Source of the DNA: Variovorax sp. HW608
GTDB taxonomy: Bacteria > Pseudomonadota > Gammaproteobacteria > Burkholderiales > Burkholderiaceae_C
Assembly (NCBI RefSeq): GCF_900090195.1
Contig: NZ_LT607803.1
Location: 6,722,229-6,786,228 of the forward strand
DNA: 64,000 bases
Direction: 5' to 3'
Part shown: positions 35,129 to 51,520 of the stretch, in pieces
Numbering within the stretch: position 1 is the first letter of the stretch
Layout of the letters: every line of letters starts with the position of its first letter
Made by a program: the position numbers and the translations under genes
Notes under the pieces: generated by a model
The model's database searches: none
The model's input: the letters and a program-made list of their open reading frames with translations, nothing else
Told to the model about the DNA's origin: nothing

Positions 35129-36182
<1,054 letters not shown>

Positions 36183-36186
<4 letters not shown>

Positions 36187-36248
36187 TCGATTACCTCCGT
36201 GCTTCGCACTGCGGTGCGAGCGCCTTCGGGCGGCCGGGCGGCGCTCAT
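36183..36248 (-). repeat. 66-nt intercistronic repeat, copy 1, with 21-residue micro-ORF
   Basis: Fills the entire gap between the DppC- and DppD-type genes. The micro-ORF starts with an ATG overlapping the DppC TGA (ATGA), begins [15 protein letters not shown] and ends STEVIE. Its TGA overlaps the DppD ATG. Within it lie two potential RNA hairpins, GAGCGCC/GGCGCTC and CGCAC-CGCA-GTGCG, then GGAGGT six bases before the DppD start. The first 45 or so bases are shared with copies at 45440-45505 and 48994-49059. Confidence 0.85.
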
Positions 36249-37111
36249 GCCGCTTTCCTCAGCTTGGGATCGAGCATGTCGCGCACGCCGTCGCCCAGGA
36301 TCTGCAGCGACAGCGCGGTCAGCACGATCGCGAGGCCGGGGCAGAAGATGGTCCAGAAGGCCTTGTCGGCGTATTCGAGGCTGCCGGCGATCATGGTGCC
36401 CCAGGTCGGGATGTCCGGCGGCACGCCGACGCCGAGGAACGAAAGCCCCGCCTCGGCCAGGATCGCGTAGGCGAAGATGAAGGTCACCTGCACGAGGATC
36501 GGCGACATCAGGTTCGGCAGGATGTGCTTGCGCAGGATGCGCGGCGTGCGCACGCCGAGGGCCCGCGCTGCATCGACGAACAGCAGTTCGCGCAGCACCA
36601 GCGTGGTGGCGCGCACCACCCGCGCCACGCGCGGCGTATAGACGATCACCAGCGCCAGCATCACGTTCCACAGCGAAACGCCGAGGATCGACACCAGCGC
36701 GATGCCCAGCAGGATGTCGGGGAAGGACATCATCGCGTCGACGATGCGCATCAGCGGCGCGTCGAGGCGGCGGAAGAAGCCGGCGAGCATCCCGAGCAGC
36801 GTGCCGCAGAGCACGGCGCCGGCGGCGGTGATGAAGCCGATCAGGAGCGAATAGCGCGCGCCGTGCACGATGCGCAGCATCACGTCGCGGCCGAGCTCGT
36901 CGGTGCCCGCCCAATGCTCCCAGGAAGGTGCGTGCAGCCGCTGGCTGATCTCGATCGCGCCGGGGTCCGCGTCCGAGACCCACGGGAGGATCACCGCCAC
37001 GCCCACCACCAGCAGCAGCACCAGCGCCGACGCGAGCACGATCCGGCGCATGAACAGGCGGCTCGCCATCGGCAGCAGACTGGCGACAAAGGATGAGACG
37101 GCCGCTTTCAT
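36245..37111 (-). CDS. Peptide ABC transporter permease (DppC type)
   Basis: 288 residues with an N-terminal membrane anchor, the DppC/OppC N-domain ([27 protein letters not shown]) and five more helices. The EAA-type loop is [23 protein letters not shown]. Its start overlaps the DppB-type stop by 4 bp. The last codon is followed by TGA within ATGA of the micro-ORF repeat. Confidence 0.92.
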
Positions 37112-38058
37112 TTGGACTCCAGCCGGATGCGCGGATCGACCAGCGTGTAGATGAAGTCGATGCCGAGGTTGATGAACACGTAGATGGCCGCGATGACGAG
37201 CAGCGTGCCCTGGATCACCGGGTAGTCGCGCCGCAGCACCGCGCGCACCACCAGGTTGCCGACGCCGGGCAGGTTGAACACCGTCTCGGTCACCACGGTG
37301 CCGCCGATCATCAGCGCGAGCGTGAGGCCGAGCACCGTGACGATCGGCACCAGCGCGTTGCGCAGCACGTGGTGGACCATGATCACGCGCTCGGGCAGGC
37401 CCTTGGCGCGTGCGGTGCGCACGTAGTCCTCGCCGAGGATGTCGAGCACCGAGGCGCGCGTGAAGCGGATGATCAGCGCCGAGTTGAGCAGCCCCAGCAC
37501 CAGCGCGGGCAACAGCAGGTGATGCAGCCGCTCGTGCAGCGTTGCGCTCGGATCGCCGTAGCCCGATGCCGGGAACCACCCGAGCTTGACCGCGAAGAAC
37601 TGGATCAGGATCAGGCCGAGCCAGAAGCTCGGCACGCTCGCGCCGAGCATCGCGACGCTGCTGACGGCCTGGTCGGCCGCGCTGCCGCGCCAGACGGCCG
37701 CCGCCATGCCGGCCGGAATGCCGATCAGCGCCGCGATGAACACCGCGAAGAGCGCGAGGAACAGCGTCGGCTCGGCACGCTCCAGCAGCGCCTGCGCCAC
37801 GGGGCGCTGCAGGAACAGCGACTGCCCCAGGTTGCCGTGCAGCAGCTCGCCGACCCACAGCACGAACTGCGTCGGCAGCGGCTTGTCGAGCCCGTATTGC
37901 ACGCGGGCCGCGGCGATGTCGGCGGCGGTGGCCTGATCGCCGAGCAGCAGCGCAACGGGATCACCGGACGCGAGGCGCGTCAGGGTGAAGACCAGCACCG
38001 CGACGATCGCGAGCACCGCCAGGGCCCCGGCCAGGCGGGTGAGCAGGAAGCGCAGCAT
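37108..38058 (-). CDS. Peptide ABC transporter permease (DppB type)
   Basis: 316 residues with six predicted helices. Family marks: MLRFLLTRLAGALAVLAIVAVLVF start, LGLDKPLPTQF-like periplasmic loop (YGLDKPLPTQFVLWV), GNLGQSLFLQRPV and the EAA loop RTARAKGLPERVIMVHHVLRNAL. Follows the binding-protein gene by 17 bp. Confidence 0.92.
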   Translation of the reverse strand: MLRFLLTRLAGALAVLAIVAVLVFTLTRLASGDPVALLLGDQATAADIAAARVQYGLDKPLPTQFVLWVGELLHGNLGQSLFLQRPVAQALLERAEPTLFLALFAVFIAALIGIPAGMAAAVWRGSAADQAVSSVAMLGASVPSFWLGLILIQFFAVKLGWFPASGYGDPSATLHERLHHLLLPALVLGLLNSALIIRFTRASVLDILGEDYVRTARAKGLPERVIMVHHVLRNALVPIVTVLGLTLALMIGGTVVTETVFNLPGVGNLVVRAVLRRDYPVIQGTLLVIAAIYVFINLGIDFIYTLVDPRIRLESK

Positions 38059-38075
38059 GACGAGGGTCCGTGGCT

Positions 38076-39680
38076 TTACTTGGCGAGGCCGGTGTTCCAG
38101 AAGAACGGCCAGATCGCCGGCGTATACCCCTCCAGCTTGGCCGAGCGCGCGGACAAGCTGTTGAACTTGCCGACCTCGATGAACGGCACTTCGTCATACA
38201 CCGTCTGCTGCACCTGGCCCCACAGCGCGCCGCGCTTGGCGACGTCGCTTTCGTGGTTGAAGGCGGCCAAGGTCGACTTCTTGGCCGGCGTTTCCCACCA
38301 GCCCGGCGCGCCGTCGCCCAGCTGCGGCGGCGAGAGCATCGGCTCGGGGAAGAGGCCCGAATGCGTGAAGTACACGTCCCACAACTTGGCATCGTTGCGC
38401 CGCTGCACCAGCGTGGCCCAGTCCACCACCTGCAGGTCAGTCTTGAAGCCGGCCTTCTTGAGCTGCTCGGACATCACGAGCGCCATGTTGTAGTGGAACT
38501 CGTACTGGCGGCTCGCCATGATGCGGATCGGCTGGCCGTTGTAGCCGGCCTTGGCGGCAGCCTCCTTGGCCGACTGCGGGTTGCGCGTGTTGTAGGCGTT
38601 GCTGCCCGCGGTCGAGAAGTACGGCGTGCCCTTCGGGAAGAAGTTGGGCTCGACGACGAAGAAGCGGTTGTCGCCGAAGCCGGCAGCCATCAGCTCGCCC
38701 TGCCCCACCGCGGTCTGCACCGCGCGGCGCAGCGGCTGCGATGCCAGCACGCCTTCCTTGGTGTTGAACACGATGTAGGGGAAGCCGAAGTTCTTCGTCA
38801 CGATCGGCACGACTGCTGGCGCGCCCTTGTCGATGCGGCCTGCAGACTCGACGGGCAGCAGGTCGGCGTACTGGAACTGGCCCGACAGCGCGCCTTCGAC
38901 GCGCGTGTTCGCGTTTGGCACGGGCACGAAGCGCAGCTCGTCCAGCAGGGCTTCGCGGCGGCCCGCGTAGCCGCTCGGCGCCTCCTTGCGCGGCGAGTAG
39001 CCTTCATAGCGCACCAGCACCGTGAACTGGTCGGGGCGGCGCTCCTTGAACTTGTAGGGGCCGGTGCCGATGAAGTCCTTCAGCTGCGGCGCGATGCTTT
39101 CCTTGGCCATGATCGCCGCCATGCCGCTGGGCAGCGCCAGCTGCGCGAGCAGGGGTGCGTACGGTGCATTGAGCTTGATCTCCACCGTGAGCGGGCCCTT
39201 GGCGGTCAGCGAGGCGACTTCCTTGCCCACTGCCTTGCCGCGCGGCGACAGCTCCATCCAGCGCTGCAGCGACGCGACCACGTCATCGGCGTTCAACTCG
39301 CGTCCGTTGTGGAACTTCACACCCTTGCGCAGCGCGATGGTGTAGGTCAGGCCGTCCTTCGAGACCACCGGCATGCCTTCGGCCAGCATCGGCGCGATGT
39401 TCCAGTTCGCATCGAAGGTATAGAGTGGCTCGTAGACGTGCTGCATGATCGTGCCGACGAGGTCGGCGGTGCTGATCATGGGGTCGAGGCCCTGCGGCTC
39501 GCCGACCATCGCCAGATTGGCCGCTCCGCCCTTCGGAGGTTCGGCGAACGCGGCCCCGGGCAGGAGGCCCAGCGCAAGCACGGCGGCGGCTGCGCCCGCG
39601 AATGCCCGCCAACGCGGCGCGCGCACCGTGCTGGGAGAAGAAAAACCAGATGTCGGTACAGTGGTGGCGGTCATTTGCAT
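38076..39680 (-). CDS. Peptide ABC transporter substrate-binding protein (SBP family 5)
   Basis: About 534 residues. A long N-region precedes the signal peptide (AAAVLALGLLPGAAFAEPP). Mature family-5 motifs: EPQGLDPMISTADLVGTIMQHVYEPLYTFD, LRKGVKFHNGRELNADDVVASLQRW, GTGPYKFKE and the C-terminal FTHSGLFPEPMLSPPQ. Starts at 39692, 39680 and 39674 are all possible; 39680 was preferred because AGGG lies 5 bases before it. First gene of the leftward operon. Its linkage to D-amino-acid enzymes suggests peptides or acylated amino acids as ligand. Confidence 0.88.
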   Translation of the reverse strand: MQMTATTVPTSGFSSPSTVRAPRWRAFAGAAAAVLALGLLPGAAFAEPPKGGAANLAMVGEPQGLDPMISTADLVGTIMQHVYEPLYTFDANWNIAPMLAEGMPVVSKDGLTYTIALRKGVKFHNGRELNADDVVASLQRWMELSPRGKAVGKEVASLTAKGPLTVEIKLNAPYAPLLAQLALPSGMAAIMAKESIAPQLKDFIGTGPYKFKERRPDQFTVLVRYEGYSPRKEAPSGYAGRREALLDELRFVPVPNANTRVEGALSGQFQYADLLPVESAGRIDKGAPAVVPIVTKNFGFPYIVFNTKEGVLASQPLRRAVQTAVGQGELMAAGFGDNRFFVVEPNFFPKGTPYFSTAGSNAYNTRNPQSAKEAAAKAGYNGQPIRIMASRQYEFHYNMALVMSEQLKKAGFKTDLQVVDWATLVQRRNDAKLWDVYFTHSGLFPEPMLSPPQLGDGAPGWWETPAKKSTLAAFNHESDVAKRGALWGQVQQTVYDEVPFIEVGKFNSLSARSAKLEGYTPAIWPFFWNTGLAK

Positions 39681-39796
39681 CGTGGCCCTCATGAGTAATA
39701 ACATTACATCGGTGATCCTATTTTGCGAAACTATCCACGTCAAAATAGGGTTTACCCTAGGAATCAATGTAATTTCTTTACAAACATCACCAGATC
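39681..39796. promoter_or_regulatory. Divergent promoter region with nested dyads
   Basis: 116-bp A+T-rich gap between two divergent operons. Three inverted repeats are nested or interleaved: ATTACAT / ATGTAAT (39703-39709, 39767-39773), CCTATTTTG / CAAAATAGG (39717-39725, 39741-39749) and TAGGG-TTTA-CCCTA (39746-39759). These are good candidate sites for the RpiR regulator encoded in the leftward operon. Individual -35/-10 boxes are not clear enough to name. Confidence 0.6.
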
Positions 39797-40189
39797 ATGT
39801 CCCACGTTGAAATGCTCGGCCAGTCGCCGATCGCCTCCGATCGCCAGGCACGCCCCCTGTCGCCCGCCACCCGTGCAGGCGATTTCGTCTTTGTCTCGGG
39901 CCAGGTCCCCACGGATGACCAGGGCCAGGTGATCGTCGGCGGCATCGAGGAGCAGACGCGCCAGGTCTTCAAGCGCATCGAGGATGCGCTCGCGCTCGCG
40001 GGCTGCACGCTCTCGGACATCGCCAAGGTCAGCGTGTGGCTGAACGACGCGCGCGATTTCGGCAGCTTCAACCGCGTGTACATGGAGTGCCTGGGCGACC
40101 ATCGCCCGGCACGCTCGACGGTCGAGTCGCGGCTGATGATCGACGCCAAGGTCGAGATCGACGTCACCGCGTACAAACCGCGCGGCTGA
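39797..40189 (+). CDS. ridA: RidA-family 2-iminoacid deaminase
   Basis: 130 residues of the RidA/YjgF/UK114 family: GDFVFVSGQVPTDDQG, EEQTRQVFKRIEDALALAGCTLSDIAKVSVWL and the active-site arginine in DHRPARSTVES. RidA hydrolyses reactive enamines and imines (for example 2-aminoacrylate) released by PLP deaminases. That fits its position opposite the D-amino-acid deaminase operon. Lysine replaces the usual tyrosine near the N-terminus in places, so a RidA subfamily rather than archetypal RidA is possible. Confidence 0.85.
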   Translation: MSHVEMLGQSPIASDRQARPLSPATRAGDFVFVSGQVPTDDQGQVIVGGIEEQTRQVFKRIEDALALAGCTLSDIAKVSVWLNDARDFGSFNRVYMECLGDHRPARSTVESRLMIDAKVEIDVTAYKPRG

Positions 40190-40208
40190 CCCCCAAGGAG
40201 GCGACATC

Positions 40209-40331
40209 ATGAGCCGCCCGGCCGTTCCGAAGGCGAATCCCGAAGCGCCGCTGCGCGAGGGTAGTCCAATGAGCCGCCGCGCCGCCCCAAGGCGAATACC
40301 GCAGCGCTGTTGCGCGGAGGTCATCCAATGA
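40209..40331 (+). repeat. Double-copy variant of the intercistronic repeat with 40-residue micro-ORF
   Basis: Two diverged tandem units (from ATGAGCCGCCCGGCCG at 40209 and ATGAGCCGCCGCGCCG at 40269), each ending in a ribosome-binding-like site (GAGGGT, GGAGGT) before the next ATGAGC. Read from the first ATG, preceded by AAGGAGG, the frame is open for 40 codons. Its TGA overlaps the dgoK ATG (ATGA). It resembles the 66-nt repeat found elsewhere but is more diverged and lacks ATGA overlap with ridA, whose stop is 19 bp upstream. Confidence 0.65.
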
Positions 40332-41230
40332 GCCATACCCGCCTTGTCGCCGTCGACTGGGGTACGAGCTCCCTTCGGGGTGCACTGCTCGAGCCCGACG
40401 GGCGCGTCGTCGAGGAGCAGAGCCATGCGCGCGGCATCCTCACCGTCAAGAATGGCGGCTTCACGGAGGTGTTCGAAACCCTCTTCGCCGACTGGATGCG
40501 GCCGCCGGGCACGCGCTGCCTGATCTCGGGCATGGCGGGCAGCAAGCAGGGGTGGGTCGAGGCGCCCTACTGCGCCTGCCCCGCGGGCCTTGCCGAAGTG
40601 CGCAGCAAGATCATGGAGATCGAACCCGGCCGCATCTCGATCGTGCCGGGCCTTAGCGACACGCACGACGGCGTGCCCGACGTGATGCGCGGCGAGGAGG
40701 TGCAGATCCTCGGTGCGATGGTGCTCACCAACCTGCGCGACGGGCTCTTCGTGCTCCCCGGCACGCACAACAAGTGGGCCCGCGTGAAGAACGGCATGGT
40801 CACGGGCTTTCGCACCTTCATGACCGGCGAGTTCTACGCGCTGCTGAGCCAGCACTCGATCCTCTCGCGCACGCTCGACACCTCGGCCGCACTCGACGAG
40901 GCTGCGTTCCTTCAGGGCGTGACCCAGTCCGACAACGGACAGGGCCTGCTGCACAACGCCTTCGGCGCCCGGACGCTCTCGCTTTTCGACCGCATGCCGG
41001 CGCGCGAACTGACGAGCTACCTGTCGGGCGTCCTGATCGGCGAGGAACTGCGCACCCAGTCCCTGCATGCGGCCGGCGAGGTGGTGCTGATCGGCACGCC
41101 GGCGCTCACGCAGCGCTACATGCTCGCGCTGCAGGCATCGGGCATCAAGGCGCGGACGCTGGGCTCCGAAGCCACCTGGGCCGGCCTGCACGCGCTCCAC
41201 GCACCCAATCCAACCCAACGCAAGCAATGA
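40328..41230 (+). CDS. dgoK: 2-dehydro-3-deoxygalactonokinase
   Basis: 300 residues of the DgoK family (sugar-kinase/Hsp70/actin fold). N-terminal phosphate motif VAVDWGTSSLRGALLEPDG; family segments LISGMAGSKQGWVEAPYC, MRGEEVQILGA and VLPGTHNKWARVKNGMVTGFRTFMTGE. Phosphorylates 2-dehydro-3-deoxy-D-galactonate at C6 in the De Ley-Doudoroff route. ATG 40328 was chosen because GGAGGT lies 7 bases upstream and MSHTRLVAVDWG is the natural start. Followed by dgoA with a 4-bp overlap. Confidence 0.9.
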   Translation: MSHTRLVAVDWGTSSLRGALLEPDGRVVEEQSHARGILTVKNGGFTEVFETLFADWMRPPGTRCLISGMAGSKQGWVEAPYCACPAGLAEVRSKIMEIEPGRISIVPGLSDTHDGVPDVMRGEEVQILGAMVLTNLRDGLFVLPGTHNKWARVKNGMVTGFRTFMTGEFYALLSQHSILSRTLDTSAALDEAAFLQGVTQSDNGQGLLHNAFGARTLSLFDRMPARELTSYLSGVLIGEELRTQSLHAAGEVVLIGTPALTQRYMLALQASGIKARTLGSEATWAGLHALHAPNPTQRKQ

Positions 41231-41868
41231 CCGCTCCGCACGACAAATTCACCGCCGCCATGCGGCAGCTTCCCCTCGTCGCCATCCTTCGCGGCCTGAC
41301 GCCCGAAGAGGCGCCCGCCGTCGGCGACGCCATCGTCGAATCGGGCTTCCGGCTGCTCGAGGTGCCGCTCAATTCGCCGCGTCCGCTCGAAAGCATTGCG
41401 CTCCTGGCCGGGCGATTTCCGCAGGCGCTGGTCGGCGCGGGAACGGTGCTGACCGCGCAGGAAGTGCGGGCCGTGCACGCCGTCGGCGGCGAGCTGATCG
41501 TGGCGCCGAATTTCAACGCCGAGGTGGTCGCCGAAGCGAAGCGCCTCGGACTCGTGAGCCTGCCCGGCGTGATGACGCCGACCGAGGCCTTCGGCGCACT
41601 CGCGGCGGGCGCGACCGGGCTCAAGTTGTTTCCGGCCGAGCTGGCGTCGCCGGCGGCGGTCAAGGCACTGCTCGCGGTGCTGCCCAAGGGCACGCCGCTG
41701 ATGCCGGTCGGCGGCATCACGCCCGACAACATGGAAGCCTGGCGAGCCGCTGGCTCCGCGGGCTTCGGCATCGGCTCGGCGCTGTACAAACCCGGCAAGA
41801 GCGCGGCGGCGGTGCGTGAGGATGCGCAGCGTTTTGTCGCGGCCTTCGGCGGCGCGCTGCGCGCCTGA
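41227..41868 (+). CDS. dgoA: 2-dehydro-3-deoxy-6-phosphogalactonate aldolase
   Basis: 213-residue KDPG/KDPGal aldolase-family TIM barrel. LVAILRGLTPEEAPAVGDAIVESGFRLLEVPLNSPRPLESI has the catalytic Glu and the LNSP feature usual for DgoA. The Schiff-base lysine is in TGLKLFPAE, and PVGGITPDNM binds phosphate. Cleaves KDPGal to pyruvate and glyceraldehyde-3-phosphate. Starts within the dgoK stop (ATGA). Convergent with the Gcr gene, 12 bp between stops. Confidence 0.92.
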   Translation: MTAPHDKFTAAMRQLPLVAILRGLTPEEAPAVGDAIVESGFRLLEVPLNSPRPLESIALLAGRFPQALVGAGTVLTAQEVRAVHAVGGELIVAPNFNAEVVAEAKRLGLVSLPGVMTPTEAFGALAAGATGLKLFPAELASPAAVKALLAVLPKGTPLMPVGGITPDNMEAWRAAGSAGFGIGSALYKPGKSAAAVREDAQRFVAAFGGALRA

Positions 41869-41880
41869 ACGCCTGAACGC

Positions 41881-43971
41881 CTAGCCGGCGCGCTGCTGAC
41901 CGAGCCCCGGCCAGACCAGATCCATCGGCCGGCTTCGCACGCGGCGCCACACGCCCTCGTACAACGAGCGCACATGCGCGCGCCGCAGGTCGCGCGAGCG
42001 GATCGCCATGTGGAAGGCGAGCGCGAAACTCACCGCCACGTTCAGCACCGCCATGCTGCACACGCCGGCCACCGCCCACCACAATGCGGCGGAGCGCAAG
42101 CTGTCCGTGCCGAGCACGCCGAGCGCCACGCCGATCGAGCCCGCGCTCAGCGTCACGTGGCGAACGTCGAAGCTGAAGGCAAAGGCTGAAAGAAGCGCCG
42201 GCACCAAACCCAGCATCAGCCCGAGCGAGATGTTGCCCGCCACGCCCGCGATGTTCGAGCGCCAGAACGCCGCCAGCCGCGCCGCGCCCGCCACGCCGAG
42301 CGTCAGCCGCAGTCGGCGGTTGTGCTCGAGCGCGTCGCCGACCCGGTGCAGCATGAACCAGTTGTCCACCCAACCCGCGAACAGGCTCGACGACCACAGC
42401 AGCACGCCGGTCAGCGCGGCATAGATCGGCGTCGGCCCGACGAGCGAGAACGATTCGAGCGTCGCCTGTGCCTTCGCGGGCGAAACGATGTCGGCGTCGA
42501 ACACCTGGCGCATGAGCAGCTGGAAGCCGAGGCACACCGGAACGACCATCATCACGTTCCCGAGCACCGCCGCCGCCTGCGTGCGGATCAGCGCGAACAC
42601 CGAGGCGACGAACTCGTCCATGCCCTGCGGTGTGCCGGCCCCGTCGAGCTCGCGCGCGAGCGTCGGTGCGGTCATCGCAGGCTGCTTGGTGGCGAGCGAG
42701 AAATGCAGGAAGTGGATCAAGAGAAAGCTCGCCGCGTAGTTGATGCCCGCGAGCAGTCCTTCGAGCATCGAAGGCAGGTACGCGCCGGTGATCGCGAACT
42801 TGATGCACACCGTCATCACCGTCACGAGCCCGCCGCCGGCTGCCATGCGCAGCATCTTCAGGTAGTCCTGGCGGTCGCGGGCAATGTAGTGCTCGCCGGT
42901 GTCCGCGTTGTATTCGACCACCTTGCGCGCGAGCAGCGAAACGTTGCTGTTCAGCAGGTGCGACACGCTGCGGCTTTCCTGGTTGGCCTTGACGAGCTCC
43001 GCGGCAAGCCGGGACACGGCACGCATGTCATCCGATGCCATCCAGGCGTCCAGGAGATGCTCGGTGCGCGTGATGCGCATCCGCATGCGCTCCACCTGGA
43101 ACACGATGTCGACGCTGACGCCGTTGCGGTAGAGATTGGCGAACACGTCGTCGGTGGCGATGCGGCACTGGTCGAGCACCAGCCGCAGGTAGTTGACCTC
43201 GCGCAGCAGCTGCGCGGGCTCCGCGCCCTCTTCCACCGCCCGGTGCGCGGCCTCGACCGCGAGCATCGCACGCGTGAGACGGTAGAACGGCTGCGATTCG
43301 GTCGCCACGCGCGCATCCGCGTCGCCGAGCCGGCTGCGCACCAGTTGCGACATGCCGGTCGAGCTGACCTGGCAGCTCAGGTTATGAAGCGCGGCCAGCA
43401 GGTCGAGCGAGAACGCACCGGTGCGCCGCGCGTCGTCCGCTTCATCGTGCCGGAACAGCGCGTGGAGGCGGTCGAGCAGTTCGATGGGCAGCGCGTCGAT
43501 CCACTCGGCGTCATGGTTGGAGGTGAACATCAGCGTGAACAGCGCCCCGAGTTCGCGCCGGTTCGGCGCCGGCGGAATCATCAAGGTCTGCACCCGCTCG
43601 ACCAGCGCGCCGACGAAGCCCGAATGGACCGGCATGCCGGCATCGCACAGCAGCGACATGCCATCGCTCTCGCGCAGCACCGCGCGCAGGATCCCGGCGA
43701 CGTTCGCCCTCCACGCTGGATTGCGATCGAGCACGTTCAGCAGGTAGCGCAGGCGCGTGTGTTCCGCGAAGCTGCGCGCCGCCGATCCGTCGGCGCTGTC
43801 GCCCTGCAGTGTGCCCGAGCGGCGGATCCAGTGCGCCAGTTCGATCAGCCACTCGCTGCGTGCCGTGTAGGACGCGCCTGCATCGGCCATGGCCAGCAGG
43901 ACGTCGAGCTGGTGACTGGCGCTGCGCGCGGCGCGCCAGTTCTTGACGAAGGCTGTGAGCGTACGAAGCAT
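41881..43971 (-). CDS. Gcr-type 'site-specific recombinase' family membrane protein
   Basis: 696 residues matching the family named after Neisseria Gcr and annotated 'site-specific recombinase'. The N-terminal half is helical and soluble (LLAMADAGASYTARSEWLIELAHWIRRSG; LREVNYLRLVLDQCRIATDDVFANLYRNGVSVDIVFQVERM). The C-terminal half contains several strongly hydrophobic segments (VFALIRTQAAAVLGNVMMVVPVCLGF, PIYAALTGVLLWSSSLFAGWVDNWF, AALWWAVAGVCSMAVLNVAVSFALAF). No tyrosine- or serine-recombinase catalytic pattern is visible, so the family name should not be read as function. ATG 43971 gives MLRTLTAF. Confidence 0.8.
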   Translation of the reverse strand: MLRTLTAFVKNWRAARSASHQLDVLLAMADAGASYTARSEWLIELAHWIRRSGTLQGDSADGSAARSFAEHTRLRYLLNVLDRNPAWRANVAGILRAVLRESDGMSLLCDAGMPVHSGFVGALVERVQTLMIPPAPNRRELGALFTLMFTSNHDAEWIDALPIELLDRLHALFRHDEADDARRTGAFSLDLLAALHNLSCQVSSTGMSQLVRSRLGDADARVATESQPFYRLTRAMLAVEAAHRAVEEGAEPAQLLREVNYLRLVLDQCRIATDDVFANLYRNGVSVDIVFQVERMRMRITRTEHLLDAWMASDDMRAVSRLAAELVKANQESRSVSHLLNSNVSLLARKVVEYNADTGEHYIARDRQDYLKMLRMAAGGGLVTVMTVCIKFAITGAYLPSMLEGLLAGINYAASFLLIHFLHFSLATKQPAMTAPTLARELDGAGTPQGMDEFVASVFALIRTQAAAVLGNVMMVVPVCLGFQLLMRQVFDADIVSPAKAQATLESFSLVGPTPIYAALTGVLLWSSSLFAGWVDNWFMLHRVGDALEHNRRLRLTLGVAGAARLAAFWRSNIAGVAGNISLGLMLGLVPALLSAFAFSFDVRHVTLSAGSIGVALGVLGTDSLRSAALWWAVAGVCSMAVLNVAVSFALAFHMAIRSRDLRRAHVRSLYEGVWRRVRSRPMDLVWPGLGQQRAG

Positions 43972-44039
43972 GCAGGGGCGCAGATGATAACTGCGGCCCG
44001 GCGACGCATCCCCTCTCGGAAGAACCTGGGCAATCGAAT

Positions 44040-45443
44040 TCAGGAAGGCTGGATGCGGCGCAGCAGCCCGGCCGTGGTGCGCGGCCAGCCGACGCGGCCG
44101 AACCACGCGCCGCCGGCGATGGCCGAGGCGATCACGACGCCATAGATCACGAGTGCCGCACCCTGCGCGATGAACACGTCGACCAGCTCGCCGCCCCAGC
44201 GCAGCGCGAGCCAACCGCCGAGCCCGGCGACGATCAGCCGGGCGATGTTGCCGAGCACCGGCCACAGCAGGCGGCCGGCGCCCTGCGAGGCGAAATACAG
44301 CACCAGCCCGACGCCGAAGAAGCCATAGAACGGTCCGACCGCGCGCAGGTACTGCGAGCCCGCGTCGAGCATCGCGGGATCGCTGCCGAACAGCATCAGC
44401 CACTGGCGCGGGAACAACGCGGCCGCGAGGCCCACCGATCCCGCCAGGACGAAGGCGATCGCAGCGCCGGTCCATGCCGCGCGCAAGGCACGCTCGCGCC
44501 GGCCCGCGCCGATGCAGGTGCCGATCATCGCCAGGAGCGGCGCCCCGAGGCCGAAGACCAGCGGCACCAGCAGATACTCGAGCCGCGAGGCGGTGCCGTA
44601 GCCCGCGATCGCACCCGGGCCGAAGTGGCCGCACAGCGCGGTCGCGATGCCGATCGACAGATTGGTCGCCACCGTCGACACCGCGCCCACGAGGCCGACG
44701 CGCAGGATGTCGCGCATGAGCGGCCACTGCAAGCGCGCATGCGCCCATGACGGCTTCAGCAGGCTGCGATCGGAACGCAGGTAGAGCCACAGCGCGATCG
44801 ACCCGCCGAGGTAGTAGACCAGCAGCGCGACTGCCCCGCCCGCGATGCCCAGGCCGGGGATCGGACCCCAGCCGAAGATCAGCAACGGCGAGAGCGGAAT
44901 CAGCATGAATACGCCCGCCACGGTCACGTTCGCCGGCACCGCCATGTTGCCGGTGCCGCGCAGCACCGCGGCGAGCGAATTGAAGATCCACACCAGCACC
45001 GCCCCCGCGAAGACCACGTCGGCATAGCGCAGCGCCGCTTCGAGCGAAGCACCCGAGCCGCCCATCAGCGTGAAGAGCCAGCGCCCACCGATGAGCAGCG
45101 CGAGCATGAAGACGACGCCGAAGCCGATCGCGATCGCGATCGCGTGCAGCACCAGCGCATCGGCCACATCGCGCCGCCGCCCACCCAGCGCGCGCGCGAT
45201 GGACGATGCGATGCCGCCGCCCACTGCGCCGGCCGAGGTCATCTGCATCAGCATCACCACCGGGAACACCAGCGCCATGCCCGCGAGCGCCTCGGTGCCG
45301 AGCTTGCCGACGAAGTAGGTCTCGATCAGGCCGACCGCGGCCTGCGCGACCATCACCAGCACGTTCGGGAACGCGAGGCGCAGCAATGTGGGAACGATCG
45401 GCGCTTCGAGCAGCAGCCGGGTTCGCGCGTCCAGGCCGCTCAT
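44040..45443 (-). CDS. MATE-family efflux transporter
   Basis: 467 residues with twelve predicted helices in two homologous halves: LLRLAFPNVLVMVAQAAVGLIETYFVGKLGTEALAGMALVFP and ILRVGLVGAVSTVATNLSIGIATALCGHFGPGAIAGYGTASRLEY. MATE proteins export cationic drugs or metabolites using Na+ or H+. Its ATG overlaps the stop of the second micro-ORF repeat, which bridges it to the MFS gene upstream. Confidence 0.9.
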   Translation of the reverse strand: MSGLDARTRLLLEAPIVPTLLRLAFPNVLVMVAQAAVGLIETYFVGKLGTEALAGMALVFPVVMLMQMTSAGAVGGGIASSIARALGGRRRDVADALVLHAIAIAIGFGVVFMLALLIGGRWLFTLMGGSGASLEAALRYADVVFAGAVLVWIFNSLAAVLRGTGNMAVPANVTVAGVFMLIPLSPLLIFGWGPIPGLGIAGGAVALLVYYLGGSIALWLYLRSDRSLLKPSWAHARLQWPLMRDILRVGLVGAVSTVATNLSIGIATALCGHFGPGAIAGYGTASRLEYLLVPLVFGLGAPLLAMIGTCIGAGRRERALRAAWTGAAIAFVLAGSVGLAAALFPRQWLMLFGSDPAMLDAGSQYLRAVGPFYGFFGVGLVLYFASQGAGRLLWPVLGNIARLIVAGLGGWLALRWGGELVDVFIAQGAALVIYGVVIASAIAGGAWFGRVGWPRTTAGLLRRIQPS

Positions 45444-45505
45444 CGAGAACCTCCGTGCTGCCGCACTGCGGTGCGAGCGCCTTCGGGTGGCCGGGCGGCG
45501 CTCAT
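45440..45505 (-). repeat. 66-nt intercistronic repeat, copy 2, with 21-residue micro-ORF
   Basis: Bridges the MFS and MATE genes with ATGA overlaps at both ends. The micro-ORF begins [15 protein letters not shown] and ends QHGGSR. Relative to copy 1 it has one G-to-A change, one added base before GGAGGT and one fewer after it. Total length and both overlaps are kept while the frame of the last six codons changes. Confidence 0.85.
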
Positions 45506-46752
45506 GCCGGCTTCGCCACCAGCGCCGGCCGCGATTCGCGGATCGGCAGGTTGACCAGTGCGGCACCCGCAGCCAGCGCGATGTCGATGTACCAGACGAT
45601 GTCGTAGCTGCCCGTGGCCTGGAACACGTAGCCGCCCAGGAACGCACCGAGGAAGCCGCCGATCTGGTGCGCCAGCATCACGATGCCGAACAGCATCGCC
45701 ATATTGGCCGGGCCGAACATCTTCGCGACCAGTCCCGCGGTCGGCGGCACGGTAGAGAGGAAGGTCACCCCCATCACCGCCGCGAAGACCAGCATCACCG
45801 CCGGCGTCTTGGGTGCGAGCAGGAAGACCAGCACCGCGAGTCCGCGCGCGGCGTACACCAGCGCGAGCAGCGACTTCATGCGCCAGCGGCCGACCGCCCA
45901 GCCCATCATGAGACTGCCGACGATGTTGAAGAGGCCGATCATGGCCAGCGCCCAGCCGCCGATCTCGGGCGGGAGCCCGCAGGCAGCGACCACGCCGGGC
46001 AGGTGGGTCGCGAGGAATGCGACGTGGAAGCCGCAGACGAGGAAGCCCAGGCTCAGGTAGCGGTAGCTCGGCGTGCCGATGGCCTGGCCGACCGCCTGGC
46101 GCGCGGTGAGCGGACTCGCGCCCTTGCTGGCCGTCTGCGCGGCGAGCGCGTTCGAATTGCCCTTGAGCACGAAGACCGCGGGCAGCGCCACGAGGATCAG
46201 CACCGCGAGCCACTGCATCGCACTGGCCCAGCCGACCGCCGCCATCAGGCCGATCGCGATCGGCGCCATGGCGAACTGGCCGAAGGAGCCGCCCGCATTC
46301 ACCACGCCGGTCGCGAGGCCGCGCCTGTGCAGCGGCACCAGCCGCATGGTCGCCGCCATGAGCACCGAGGGACCGGCCATGCCCGCACCGCCTGCCGCCA
46401 GCACGCCGATCGCCAAAATGAGGCCTGCGGTCGTCGTCATCAGCGGCGTGATGAAGGTGCCGAGCGCCACCAGCAGAACGCCGATGAAGAGCACCCGTCC
46501 GGTGCCGATGCGGTCCGCCACCGCGCCCGCGAAGGGTTGCGTCAGGCCCCACCACAGCTGCCCGAATGCGAAGGCCAGGCTGATGCTGCCCAGACCCAGC
46601 CCGGTCGAGGTGTTGAGCGACGAGAGGAAGAGGCCCATCGTCTGCCGCACGCCCATCGTCAGCGCAAAGGTGCCCGCGGCGGCGAGCAGCACCAGCCAGA
46701 CGGCATGGCCCGTGGCGGAGGTAGTCGTGTCGGCAGCGGCGCGGTCAGTCAT
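45502..46752 (-). CDS. Major facilitator superfamily transporter
   Basis: 416 residues with twelve predicted helices. Features: GVRQTMGLFLSSLNTSTGLGLGSISLAFAFGQLWWGLTQPFAGAVADRIGTGRVL with the helix 2-3 motif, RRGLATGVVNAGGSFGQFAMAPI, and an oxalate/formate-antiporter-like overall pattern. Substrate unknown. Its start overlaps the end of the marR-type gene by 8 bp, so that regulator probably controls it. Confidence 0.9.
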   Translation of the reverse strand: MTDRAAADTTTSATGHAVWLVLLAAAGTFALTMGVRQTMGLFLSSLNTSTGLGLGSISLAFAFGQLWWGLTQPFAGAVADRIGTGRVLFIGVLLVALGTFITPLMTTTAGLILAIGVLAAGGAGMAGPSVLMAATMRLVPLHRRGLATGVVNAGGSFGQFAMAPIAIGLMAAVGWASAMQWLAVLILVALPAVFVLKGNSNALAAQTASKGASPLTARQAVGQAIGTPSYRYLSLGFLVCGFHVAFLATHLPGVVAACGLPPEIGGWALAMIGLFNIVGSLMMGWAVGRWRMKSLLALVYAARGLAVLVFLLAPKTPAVMLVFAAVMGVTFLSTVPPTAGLVAKMFGPANMAMLFGIVMLAHQIGGFLGAFLGGYVFQATGSYDIVWYIDIALAAGAALVNLPIRESRPALVAKPA

Positions 46753-47209
46753 CGAGTTCCCCTTCGCGGGTTTCGTCGGTGGCCTGCAGCACCGCGATGC
46801 TTTCGTCGATCAGCGCGTGAAGCGCAAGCACGCGCTCCACACCGAGCAGTTGATTGAGCTGCTCCTGCGCGCAGCGCCAGTGGCGCTGGGCCTCGCTGCG
46901 CTTCTTGCGGCCTTCGTCGGTGATCTCGACGAGGCGGCTGCGCGCATCGGGGCCCTCCCCCTGCACGAGCCACCCTTCGGCCATCAAGGGCTTGAGGTTG
47001 CGCGTGAGTGTCGATGCATCGACACCCATGGCCTGCGCCAGATCCACCGGACGGATCGGGCCCAGATGCAGCACGTGCGACAGCAGCGAGTACTGCGTGG
47101 TCTTGAGGCCGCTCTTGGCGACTTCCGCGTCATACAGCCGCGCCACCTGCCGCATCAGGTGACGCAGCTTGAAATTGGTGCAGCCCCGGGGCTTTGCGAT
47201 AGCATTCAT
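46745..47209 (-). CDS. MarR-family transcriptional regulator
   Basis: 154 residues from ATG 47209. Winged helix: LKTTQYSLLSHVLHLGPIRPVDLAQAMGVDASTLTRNLKPLMAEGWLVQGEGPDARSRLVEITDEGRKK. An upstream ATG at 47233 lies inside the operator palindrome and is less likely. Divergent from the thioesterase gene and cotranscribed with MFS, probably also MATE. A 20-bp perfect palindrome sits 4 bp upstream of its start. Confidence 0.9.
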   Translation of the reverse strand: MNAIAKPRGCTNFKLRHLMRQVARLYDAEVAKSGLKTTQYSLLSHVLHLGPIRPVDLAQAMGVDASTLTRNLKPLMAEGWLVQGEGPDARSRLVEITDEGRKKRSEAQRHWRCAQEQLNQLLGVERVLALHALIDESIAVLQATDETREGELDD

Positions 47210-47213
47210 GCCG

Positions 47214-47233
47214 ATGATTGTAGCTACAATCAT
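47214..47233. promoter_or_regulatory. Perfect 20-bp palindrome, candidate MarR operator
   Basis: ATGATTGTAGCTACAATCAT is fully self-complementary. It lies between the divergent marR-type gene (start 47209) and the thioesterase gene (start 47262). Size, symmetry and position match MarR-family operators, so autoregulation and control of both directions is likely. Binding is inferred. Confidence 0.75.
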
Positions 47234-47261
47234 TGTATATGCACCTTTTAGGGAACTGTCG

Positions 47262-47798
47262 ATGACCCCAGCAGAACAACTCGCCGCCTGGATCGCGGAG
47301 GAACAAGCCGTCACGGAGCGCCTCGACGCCGGCCCGGGCCCCGGGCTCGCGCGCCCGGACCAGGTCGTCGGCAAGACCGGCCTCGAGATGATGCAGGCCA
47401 TGATTCGCGCGGAGATCCCCTACGCGGCGATCGCGAAGACGATGAATTTCCAGATCATCGAAGTCAGCCCCGGCCGCGCGGTGTTCCAGGGCAAGCCGCT
47501 GCCGCAGCACCTGAATCCGCTCGGCACCATCCATGGCGGCTGGTTCGCCACGCTGCTCGACTCGGCCCTCGGCTGCGCGGTCCACACCATGATGCCGGCG
47601 GGCCGCGCCTACACCACCGCCGAGTTGGGCGTGAATCTCGTCAAGGCCCTGACGCCCAGGGTCGAGCGTGTGCGCGCCGAGGGCAAGGTGATCCACTGCG
47701 GCCGCCAGCTCGCCACCGCCGAAGCACGCCTTGTCGGCCCGGACGGCACGCTCTACGCGCACGCCACCACCACCTGCCTGGTCTTCGAGATGCGCTGA
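47262..47798 (+). CDS. PaaI-type hotdog thioesterase
   Basis: 178 residues. An N-terminal extension of about 45 residues precedes the hotdog fold with the catalytic-region motif LNPLGTIHGGWFATLLDSALGCAVHTMM and a closing AEARLVGPDGTLYAHATTTCLVFE. Likely hydrolyses an aromatic or short acyl-CoA. Divergent from the MarR regulator over a shared operator, which may control it. Confidence 0.87.
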   Translation: MTPAEQLAAWIAEEQAVTERLDAGPGPGLARPDQVVGKTGLEMMQAMIRAEIPYAAIAKTMNFQIIEVSPGRAVFQGKPLPQHLNPLGTIHGGWFATLLDSALGCAVHTMMPAGRAYTTAELGVNLVKALTPRVERVRAEGKVIHCGRQLATAEARLVGPDGTLYAHATTTCLVFEMR

Positions 47799-47837
47799 CC
47801 TTCGCCGGACGCGACAATCGCCGGTCAGCAACATCTG

Positions 47838-48263
47838 ATGGCGAGCCACGAAATGCGAATCCTCCACACCATGCTGCGCGTCGGCAACCTCCAGCGCTCG
47901 ATCGACTTCTACACCCAGGTGCTCGGCATGCAACTGCTGCGCACGTCGGAGAACCCCGAGTACAAGTACAGCCTCGCCTTCGTCGGCTACGAGGGCAACC
48001 CGGCGCAGGCCGAGATCGAGCTGACCTACAACTGGGGCACCGAAAGCTACGAGCTCGGCACCGCCTACGGCCACATCGCGCTCGGCGTGCCCGATGCGCA
48101 TGCGGCCTGCGAGAAGATCAAGGCCGCGGGCGGCAACGTCACGCGCGAAGCGGGGCCGGTGAAGGGCGGCACCACGGTGATCGCGTTCGTGACGGATCCG
48201 GATGGCTACAAGATCGAACTGATCCAGCGCGCGGAAGGCGCGGCGGGCGCCGGATTGCGCTAG
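47838..48263 (+). CDS. gloA: Lactoylglutathione lyase (glyoxalase I)
   Basis: 141 residues, very close to E. coli Glo[61 protein letters not shown] and [11 protein letters not shown]. The metal ligands H (LHTM), E (IELTYNWG), H (YGHIAL) and E (KIELI) are present. Isomerises the methylglyoxal-glutathione hemithioacetal. The E. coli-like start would be the ATG at 47853; the ATG at 47838 adds five residues. Confidence 0.95.
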
Positions 48264-48271
48264 GTGTGCGT

Positions 48272-48997
48272 TCAGCAGCCCAGCAGATCCGCGAGATGCT
48301 CGATGCTGCGCGCGTGCAGGTTGTTGTCCGGCTCCGGCGAAACATCCTTCGGCCGCGAAGGACCGAACTCCAGAGGCCGCTCGATGTAGGCGGTGCGCAG
48401 CCCGCAGGTGCGTGCGGCTGCGAGGTCGTCATGGTGCGCGGCGGCGAGCATCACCTGCCCCGGCGACACATCGAACACCGCCGCGACGCCGAGGTAGGTG
48501 CGCGGATCGGGCTTGTAGGCCTTGAAGACCTCGGCCGACAGCACGCAATCCCACGGCAGGCCGGCGTTCTTCGCCATCTCGGTCAAGAGGCCGATGTTGC
48601 CGTTCGAGAGCGAGCAGATGATGAACTTGCGCCTGAGCCGCGCGAGGCCCGGGACGCAATCCGGCCACGCGGGCAGCCGGTGCCAGGCCTTGTTGAGATC
48701 GCGCTTGCGGGCCGCGTCGAGATCCTCGATGCCGAAGTCGTGCAGCACACCGCCGAGGATGCCCATGTGCAGTTCGTCGAGCAGCGTGAAGCCGCCCTCG
48801 CCCGCCGCGAGGCGCTCCATCACGCCCTTCATCGCCGGCTGGTAGCCCGCGCGCCATGCCAGCGCGAACGCACCGCCATCGATGCTAGGGAGGATGCGCT
48901 CGGCCTCGGCCGCGATGCCCGAGTACCAGTCGACCACCGTCCCGAAGACGTCAAAGGCGATGACCTTCAGGTCGCTCGCGTCGACGCTTGTGTTCAC
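48272..48997 (-). CDS. HAD-superfamily haloacid dehalogenase type II-like hydrolase
   Basis: 241 residues. Nucleophile motif IAFDVFGTVVDW (Asp), SLSNGNIGLL (motif II), Lys in AYKPDPRTYLGVA and a terminal motif AAAHHDDLAAARTCGLRTAYIERP. This matches L-2-haloacid dehalogenases and related phosphatases. The start is GTG 48997, because the stop of the third micro-ORF repeat overlaps it as GTGA and GGAGGT lies upstream. Probably cotranscribed with edd and eda. Confidence 0.88.
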   Translation of the reverse strand: MNTSVDASDLKVIAFDVFGTVVDWYSGIAAEAERILPSIDGGAFALAWRAGYQPAMKGVMERLAAGEGGFTLLDELHMGILGGVLHDFGIEDLDAARKRDLNKAWHRLPAWPDCVPGLARLRRKFIICSLSNGNIGLLTEMAKNAGLPWDCVLSAEVFKAYKPDPRTYLGVAAVFDVSPGQVMLAAAHHDDLAAARTCGLRTAYIERPLEFGPSRPKDVSPEPDNNLHARSIEHLADLLGC

Positions 48998-49059
48998 CAG
49001 GAAACCTCCGCGCTTCGCACTGCGGTGCGAGCGCCTTCGGGCGGCCGGGCGGCGCTCAT
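48994..49059 (-). repeat. 66-nt intercistronic repeat, copy 3, with 21-residue micro-ORF
   Basis: Bridges eda and the HAD gene. ATG overlaps the eda TGA (ATGA); the micro-ORF begins [15 protein letters not shown] and ends SAEVSW. Its TGA overlaps the HAD start as GTGA. It matches copy 1 base for base up to AGC before the ribosome-binding site, then differs by one A-to-G before GGAGGT. Confidence 0.85.
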
Positions 49060-49681
49060 CGCGCGAGCTGGCTCGCTTCTCGGGCGAGCGCCTCGATGCG
49101 CGACCAGTCGCCGGCGGCGATCGCATCGGTCGGCACGATCCACGAGCCGCCGACGCAAGCGACATTCGACAGGGCAAGAAACTCGGGCGCATTGCCCGCA
49201 TGGATGCCGCCGGTGGGGCAGAACTTCACGTCGCCGAACGGCCCCTGCCATGCCTTGAGCATCGCGAGGCCGCCCGCCTGCACCGCCGGGAAGAACTTGA
49301 GTTCGGTGAAGCCGTCTTCCTGGGCCAGCATGATTTCGCTGCCGGTCGCGACGCCCGGCAAAAGCGGCAGGCCGAGGTCGTGGCACGCCTTGCCGACCGC
49401 GCGCGTGTAGCCCGGGCTGACGCCGAACTTCGCGCCTGCGAGCGCCGAGGCCTGGGCATCGGCCGCGCTGCGGATGGTGCCGGCGCCGGCCACCGCCTCT
49501 GGCACTTCCTTGGCGATGAGTTCGATGCATTCGAGTGCCTCGCGCGTGCGCAGCGTCACCTCGAGCATGCGGATGCCGCCGGCCACGAGTGCGCGCGCCA
49601 GCGGCACCGCGTCCTTCACGTCATGCAGCACGATCACGGGGATCACCGGTGCATCGCGCATCACGTCGAGCGCGGTCAAAT

Positions 49682-49691
<10 letters not shown>
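49056..49691 (-). CDS. eda: 2-dehydro-3-deoxy-phosphogluconate (KDPG) aldolase
   Basis: 211 residues. [40 protein letters not shown] holds the catalytic Glu, the Schiff-base lysine is in [14 protein letters not shown], and [15 protein letters not shown] binds phosphate. Cleaves KDPG to pyruvate and glyceraldehyde-3-phosphate in the Entner-Doudoroff pathway. Start overlaps the end of edd by 10 bp. It differs in sequence from the dgoA product and keeps the VTLRT element of Eda rather than LNSP. Confidence 0.94.

Positions 49692-51520
<1,829 letters not shown>

Follow-up and report, generated by a model that had tools for sequence, protein, structure and literature searches.

The window analysed here, a stretch of 64,000 nucleotides from Variovorax sp. 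HW608, contains three type A copies of a short cassette on the minus strand, each located between two genes. Copy 1 (36183..36248) lies between the genes of an oligopeptide-type ABC permease (BPD_transp_1) and an ATPase (ABC_tran plus oligo_HPY), copy 2 (45440..45505) between an MFS (MFS_1) and a MATE (MatE) gene, and copy 3 (48994..49059) between a KDPG aldolase and a HAD-hydrolase gene. These domain assignments agree with the names DppC/DppD-type, MFS/MATE and eda/HAD that an earlier note, made from the letters alone, had given to the gene pairs. In each copy the left ATGA contains the TGA stop of the upstream gene together with the ATG of a micro-ORF, whose closing TGA is common to the start of the next gene (right ends ATGA, ATGA and GTGA for copies 1 to 3). 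The three 66-nt micro-ORFs with stop/start overlaps at both ends were thus confirmed on the minus strand. Their peptides have 15 N-terminal residues in common, followed by six residues that differ.

Within copy 1, a first hairpin with the arms GAGCGCC/GGCGCTC at the ends of 36218..36246 is followed by a second hairpin, GTGC-GAA-GCAC (36199..36209), which stands directly 5' of a Shine-Dalgarno (SD)-like GGAGGT for the downstream gene (36193..36198; all on the minus strand). All three were located in the sequence, and for both hairpins the equivalent helix covaries among copies (see below). The window additionally holds two cassettes of the related type D in tandem on the plus strand (40209-40331), which were absent from the earlier note. 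The first cassette of the pair (40209..40272) measures 60 nt to the next ATG, is in frame with that ATG and has AAGGAGG before its own ATG. In the second one (40269..40331) the next ATG follows after 59 nt; it belongs to a dgoK-like gene (PF05035) and shares bases with the closing TGA of the cassette. Presumably, the AAGGAGG before the first micro-ORF is the former SD of the dgoK-like gene, and the second cassette brings a new one.

A search of the whole genome (7.73 Mb, one contig) with copy 1 gave 24 matches at E<1e-8, so that the repeat in the window is not due to chance. The close copies form types A to C. Type D gave 56 matches in this genome, and the longer type E occurs about a dozen times, of which 11 copies were read. 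From the left start to the next start type A measures 62 nt, types B and C 65 nt, type D 59 or 60 nt and type E 86 nt. Except for the 60-nt form of type D all these lengths leave 2 modulo 3, such that the stop of the micro-ORF falls on the next start; the micro-ORF is 20-29 codons long. The length of exactly 66 nt stated in the earlier note holds for the three window copies and is, within the family, one among several lengths. Types A to D end in GGAGGT or a near variant about six bases 5' of the next start. In 30 fetched copies of type D the length was 60 nt in 12, 59 nt in 14 and neither in four; the micro-ORF of the 60-nt form continues into the following gene without a change of frame and does not close before it. 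For type E the next start followed at 86 nt as ATGA or GTGA in 8 of the 11 copies. This type, represented by L449, L450 (genome positions 7330834-7330958) and most of L451-L464, is 86 nt long with a 29-codon micro-ORF, occurs also in tandem and carries GTGGGGG at the expected SD position; in L459 the peptide frame shifts internally, but the overall length remains 86 nt.

Outside this genome, a type B query was positive in 90 of 100 congeneric genomes at E<=1e-3 and in 92 of 299 genomes (51 of 126 genera) of the taxonomic family at E<=1e-5. A draw from the class gave 2 of 276 genomes, this one and another of the same family, and none outside the family. Named records with the exact core were mostly Burkholderiales among the matches listed. 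A search of Rfam (window 36000-50000, E up to 5) returned no family at the cassettes and three weak hits elsewhere. In one Burkholderiales metagenome-assembled genome (JAEMQF; L050, L047 and L097) cassettes form arrays of up to five with periods of 64-66, in which a spacing of 64 or 66 disrupts the closed frame.

To characterize the position of the cassettes relative to genes, we collected copies of types A to C from many genomes with a profile. Its 298 hits were reduced by 40 repeats at the same place, 17 low scores and 8 hits near a locus end to 233 distinct hits, and by a further 34 tandem copies to 199 separate copies, a few of which are type-D-like. Coding frames of the flanks were called with a fourth-order codon model, which assigned 300 of 300 test pieces correctly, these pieces being drawn from its own training genes. 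The upstream gene ended at the left DTGA in 154 of the 199 copies, a gene started at the right end in 172, and both junctions were present in 138. Both flanks ran on the opposite strand at only one orthologous site (L041/L095/L052), while L019 and L146 had one flank called on the other strand. Another 18 copies showed no upstream coding signal in front of a downstream gene start, some of them behind another cassette, and 9 followed a same-strand gene read in another frame; the others had lost the left end or came with too little sequence. Type D behaved alike: where no further cassette lay on the respective side, it ended the upstream gene in 16 of 23 copies and started a gene in 13 of 21, the downstream flank being called on the other strand in L416 and L425. 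This agrees with the earlier description of a dispersed intercistronic element which points in operon direction, preserves both overlaps and supplies its own SD. Random orientation, location mostly outside operons and loss of the overlaps, by which that description would reduce to an ordinary palindrome, were looked for among the 199 copies and were not the rule, and the empty sites (below) likewise spoke for the description; nor did these copies show the REP/BIME trait of an extragenic palindrome in either orientation.

The start codons at the two ends were then compared with those of the genome. The left start was ATGA in 185 of the 199 copies, GTGA in 4, TTGA in 1, CTGA in 3 and disrupted in 6. 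Its first base is the wobble base of the upstream gene, and A makes up only 4.7% of third positions and 94 of the 1027 bases that precede a TGA stop without overlap. Part of this excess of A may come from the target site, since native -4 overlaps have A already in 141 of 176 cases. The right-end starts (143 ATGA, 32 GTGA, 5 TTGA) were similar to native usage (1397 ATG, 257 GTG, 35 TTG, n=1689). The distance between both starts was mostly 62 or 65; it equalled 2 modulo 3 in 168 of 183 measurable copies, and 163 of these 168 closed exactly on the next start. Lengths off the two modes were 2 modulo 3 in 8, 0 modulo 3 in 7 and 1 modulo 3 in 8 cases, three of the latter stemming from the reversed site. 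Because these off-mode lengths are without clear bias, the excess of 2 modulo 3 is partly a matter of shared descent.

Orthologous operons with and without a copy, a comparison that the earlier note had proposed, were examined in the window at copies 1 and 3. The site of copy 1 was empty in 29 of 29 fetched relatives, the nearest of which show a plain ATGA overlap: L180 (flanks 97 and 94% identical) and L181 read GC-ATGA-GCC without a cassette. The site of copy 3 was likewise empty in 29 of 29 relatives (L211 and L212 read CG-ATGA-G). Both insertions are therefore most likely this lineage's own. At the junction of copy 2, an ortholog in another species (L371) carries type B instead of type A, so that this slot is either older or was filled twice. 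Altogether the table of empty sites has 22 rows, corresponding to 20 distinct sites. The empty junction was a -4 overlap in 11 of the 20, and in 8 of 11 where both flanks were at least 80% identical, compared to a baseline of 176 of 1209 same-strand neighbour pairs (1.92 Mb of this genome, own gene caller). The other sites were TGATG, short gaps, long gaps or unclear, the start being poorly placeable in some of these nine (L141/L036, L352, L348). As not all empty sites are -4 overlaps, the common rule is insertion at a start codon, mostly where this start overlaps a stop. Different species carried different types at 8 of 18 orthologous junctions, a count which excludes a ninth flagged group, set apart by nothing but an unreadable label. 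A slot thus persists longer than the type that fills it, through conversion between copies or re-insertion.

Base pairing was analysed in alignment A1, which comprises 63 distinct 69-nt copies that were not chosen by a fixed 29-base pattern. Copies found with that pattern share the respective stretch by choice and were omitted from column and pair counts; of the 83 remaining references 63 are in A1, 19 in A2 and one (L007) was left out, and pairs were counted in A1 only. Hairpin 1 corresponds to columns 3-10 with 27-34 and hairpin 2 to columns 43-46 with 50-53. Together they were paired in 96.7% of cells, and 7 of their 12 pairs showed double changes, 24 in total. Some of these reflect common ancestry, as in the orthologs L351, L367, L368 and L370; shuffles gave a mean of 3.7 and slid versions at most 2. 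Hairpin 2, GTGC-GAA-GCAC, had double changes in 3 of its 4 pairs. Copying from arm to arm during replication could yield double changes in the absence of selection, hairpin 1 being the most prone to this. The covariation bears out the first of the two hairpins named in the earlier note, GAGCGCC/GGCGCTC, and replaces the second one, CGCAC-CGCA-GTGCG (no double changes in the 4 of its 5 pairs that were tested), by GTGC-GAA-GCAC beside the SD.

Among orthologous copies of the same type (31 pairs, not independent) the divergence was 0.031 for the cassette body, 0.101 for the linker and 0.213 for fourfold sites, which puts the body at 0.14 of the fourfold divergence. Gene conversion could likewise keep copies alike. 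Substitutions within the micro-ORF fell on codon positions 1, 2 and 3 in 32, 22 and 16 cases. As there is no third-position excess, the peptide is not what is kept, and selection on it was rejected. The peptide start noted earlier is indeed present in all three window copies and follows from their common nucleotides, with no codon-like constraint. The constraint appears to lie on RNA structure, SD and both overlaps rather than on the peptide.

Taken together, the sequence comparisons suggest that the cassettes are probably a MIRU-like family of short elements, mobile now or in the past, that insert at start codons, mostly at ATGA overlaps, and relay ribosomes from one gene to the next. MIRU stands for the mycobacterial interspersed repetitive units, which reportedly go back to Supply et al. 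in 1997. Since the repeat rebuilds a stop/start overlap and a ribosome-binding site, the neighbouring genes can stay coupled. A ribosome that finishes the upstream gene would re-initiate on the micro-ORF, pass both hairpins, terminate on the next start and restart there at the downstream gene with the help of the cassette SD. Translation of the operon would thereby stay intact after an insertion, and the downstream gene would obtain a self-contained initiation region. The cassette would be a natural analogue of, and counterpart to, the synthetic expression design known as 'bicistronic design'. If true, mycobacteria are not alone in having repeats that enter stop/start overlaps and restore them, and the occupied and empty operon pairs of these soil bacteria are natural material for testing whether micro-ORF coupling helps, harms or changes nothing.

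Such a relay is compatible with a purely selfish repeat, whose overlaps merely let the insertion survive with no gain for the host; the balance for and against this reading is even. It is favoured by the tandem arrays, by presence and absence between species and by the unrelated operons that were hit, and a review proposes such a use of the design for MIRUs (PMC12548453). Against it stand orthologous copies held at a small fraction of the fourfold divergence and slots that were kept while the type changed, though low divergence and kept slots would fit selection merely for expression of the downstream gene, too.

We regard as unlikely that the cassette is an element of RNA hairpins and SD with a role as a 5' leader, for independent ribosome entry or mRNA protection, in which the micro-ORF is incidental. 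At this GC content, chance alone would often leave some 20 codons open (about 70% by our own estimate), type D occurs in two frames, the substitutions within the micro-ORF show no third-position excess and 18 of the 199 copies have no upstream coding signal. An incidental micro-ORF is, however, difficult to combine with a left ATG that 185 of 199 copies retain although its A is a wobble base, and with the exact closure on the next start of 163 out of 168 micro-ORFs with a length of 2 modulo 3.

Clearly more improbable is an ordinary REP-type palindrome that is mobilised by a RAYT transposase. There is a likeness between hairpin 1 and the loop of intergenic repeats in the same genome, which also encodes one Y1 protein of RAYT size, but orientation and position of the cassettes are almost fixed. 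When two IS200/IS605-like genes and the RAYT-size gene were inspected by eye for a Y1 transposase link, no cassette-like flanks were seen, including beside the RAYT-size gene. Least probable of all is a translational switch in which translation of the micro-ORF would free an SD masked by a hairpin: in the RNAalifold structure the CC of ACCGCA and the GG of the SD are paired (columns 38-39 with 57-58), yet the mean SD accessibility was 0.35 for 73 copies, slightly higher than the 0.29 for shuffled cores and 0.28 for native GGAGG starts (n=126), and with an SD that is not predicted to be hidden the folding model makes delivery or insulation a more likely role than unfolding.

Apart from the cassettes, the genome contains an intergenic repeat, CTTGGGGCGGCCCGGC, at 25 places between 5.80 and 7.72 Mb. 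Its loop is conserved, and its outer stems vary among copies yet are complementary over 6-10 bases in several of them. The idea that other intergenic repeats also follow ATGA was dropped, as this was found for only 4 of 25 and 1 of 10. By eye, the right ends of the IS200/IS605-like elements in L240 and L241 look to lie directly 5' of an ATGA, a possible start of the next gene.

With the coupling cassette as the preferred reading we compared it to known systems. REPs lie outside genes and in either orientation. REP/BIME elements with RAYT are described as short palindromes (Nunvar et al. 2010, PMC2817692). The cassettes differ from these in being one-directional and in carrying an SD and both overlaps, while their hairpin 1 resembles the loop of the local intergenic repeat. 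In synthetic bicistronic designs the SD lies within the leader, and the stop of the leader overlaps the next start. There, a short leader ORF hands the ribosome to the next gene (PMC12548453, PMC5995908); in contrast to the cassettes this system is engineered and not a repeat. Termination-reinitiation at stop/start overlaps is the translation step assumed here, and it agrees with how the cassette ends, with its SD and with the retained start codon, whereas the system as covered in the accessible part of that work involves no repeat element (Huber et al. 2019, PMC6728339).

A published family of the same bacterial group is the Beta-proteobacterial repeat element, BRE (Hot et al. 2011, PMC3110155). 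It is found in Betaproteobacteria including Comamonadaceae, is usually intergenic, forms tandem copies and overlaps ORF ends by a few bases in some copies. By this description its length of 75-91 bp in Bordetella is close to the 86 nt of type E, and the accessible part of the account names neither coupling nor a micro-ORF and proposes no function (PMC3110155). Type E is possibly the published BRE or a relative of it.

The closest likeness is to the MIRUs. Like the cassettes, they are short dispersed repeats with an internal ORF that overlaps the neighbouring gene at either end (both junctions in 138 of 199 copies here), inserted at start codons or stop/start overlaps (11 of 20 empty sites at -4, and both window sites tested) and lying in operon direction (one reversed orthologous site among 199). 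MIRUs insert into DTGA sites and occur in tandem copies, as do the cassettes. According to the accessible part of a 2025 review, MIRUs of mycobacteria insert at start codons such that an internal ORF is coupled at -4, and the gene is probably little affected (PMC12548453). The earlier note knew of no described family with this design; on the strength of that review, MIRUs have it. Besides MIRUs no other precedent was found in the accessible literature. Features seen in the cassettes here are a strong SD, two covarying hairpins, several length types and the exchange of types at conserved junctions. It is conceivable, at slightly less than an even chance, that MIRU-like coupling cassettes are a general class with a separate origin in Burkholderiales, occupying fixed slots with exchangeable types and giving the downstream gene context-independent translation. 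As the cassettes sit in another phylum and are likened to MIRUs by design and not by sequence, we would describe them as a MIRU-like variant rather than file them as MIRUs.
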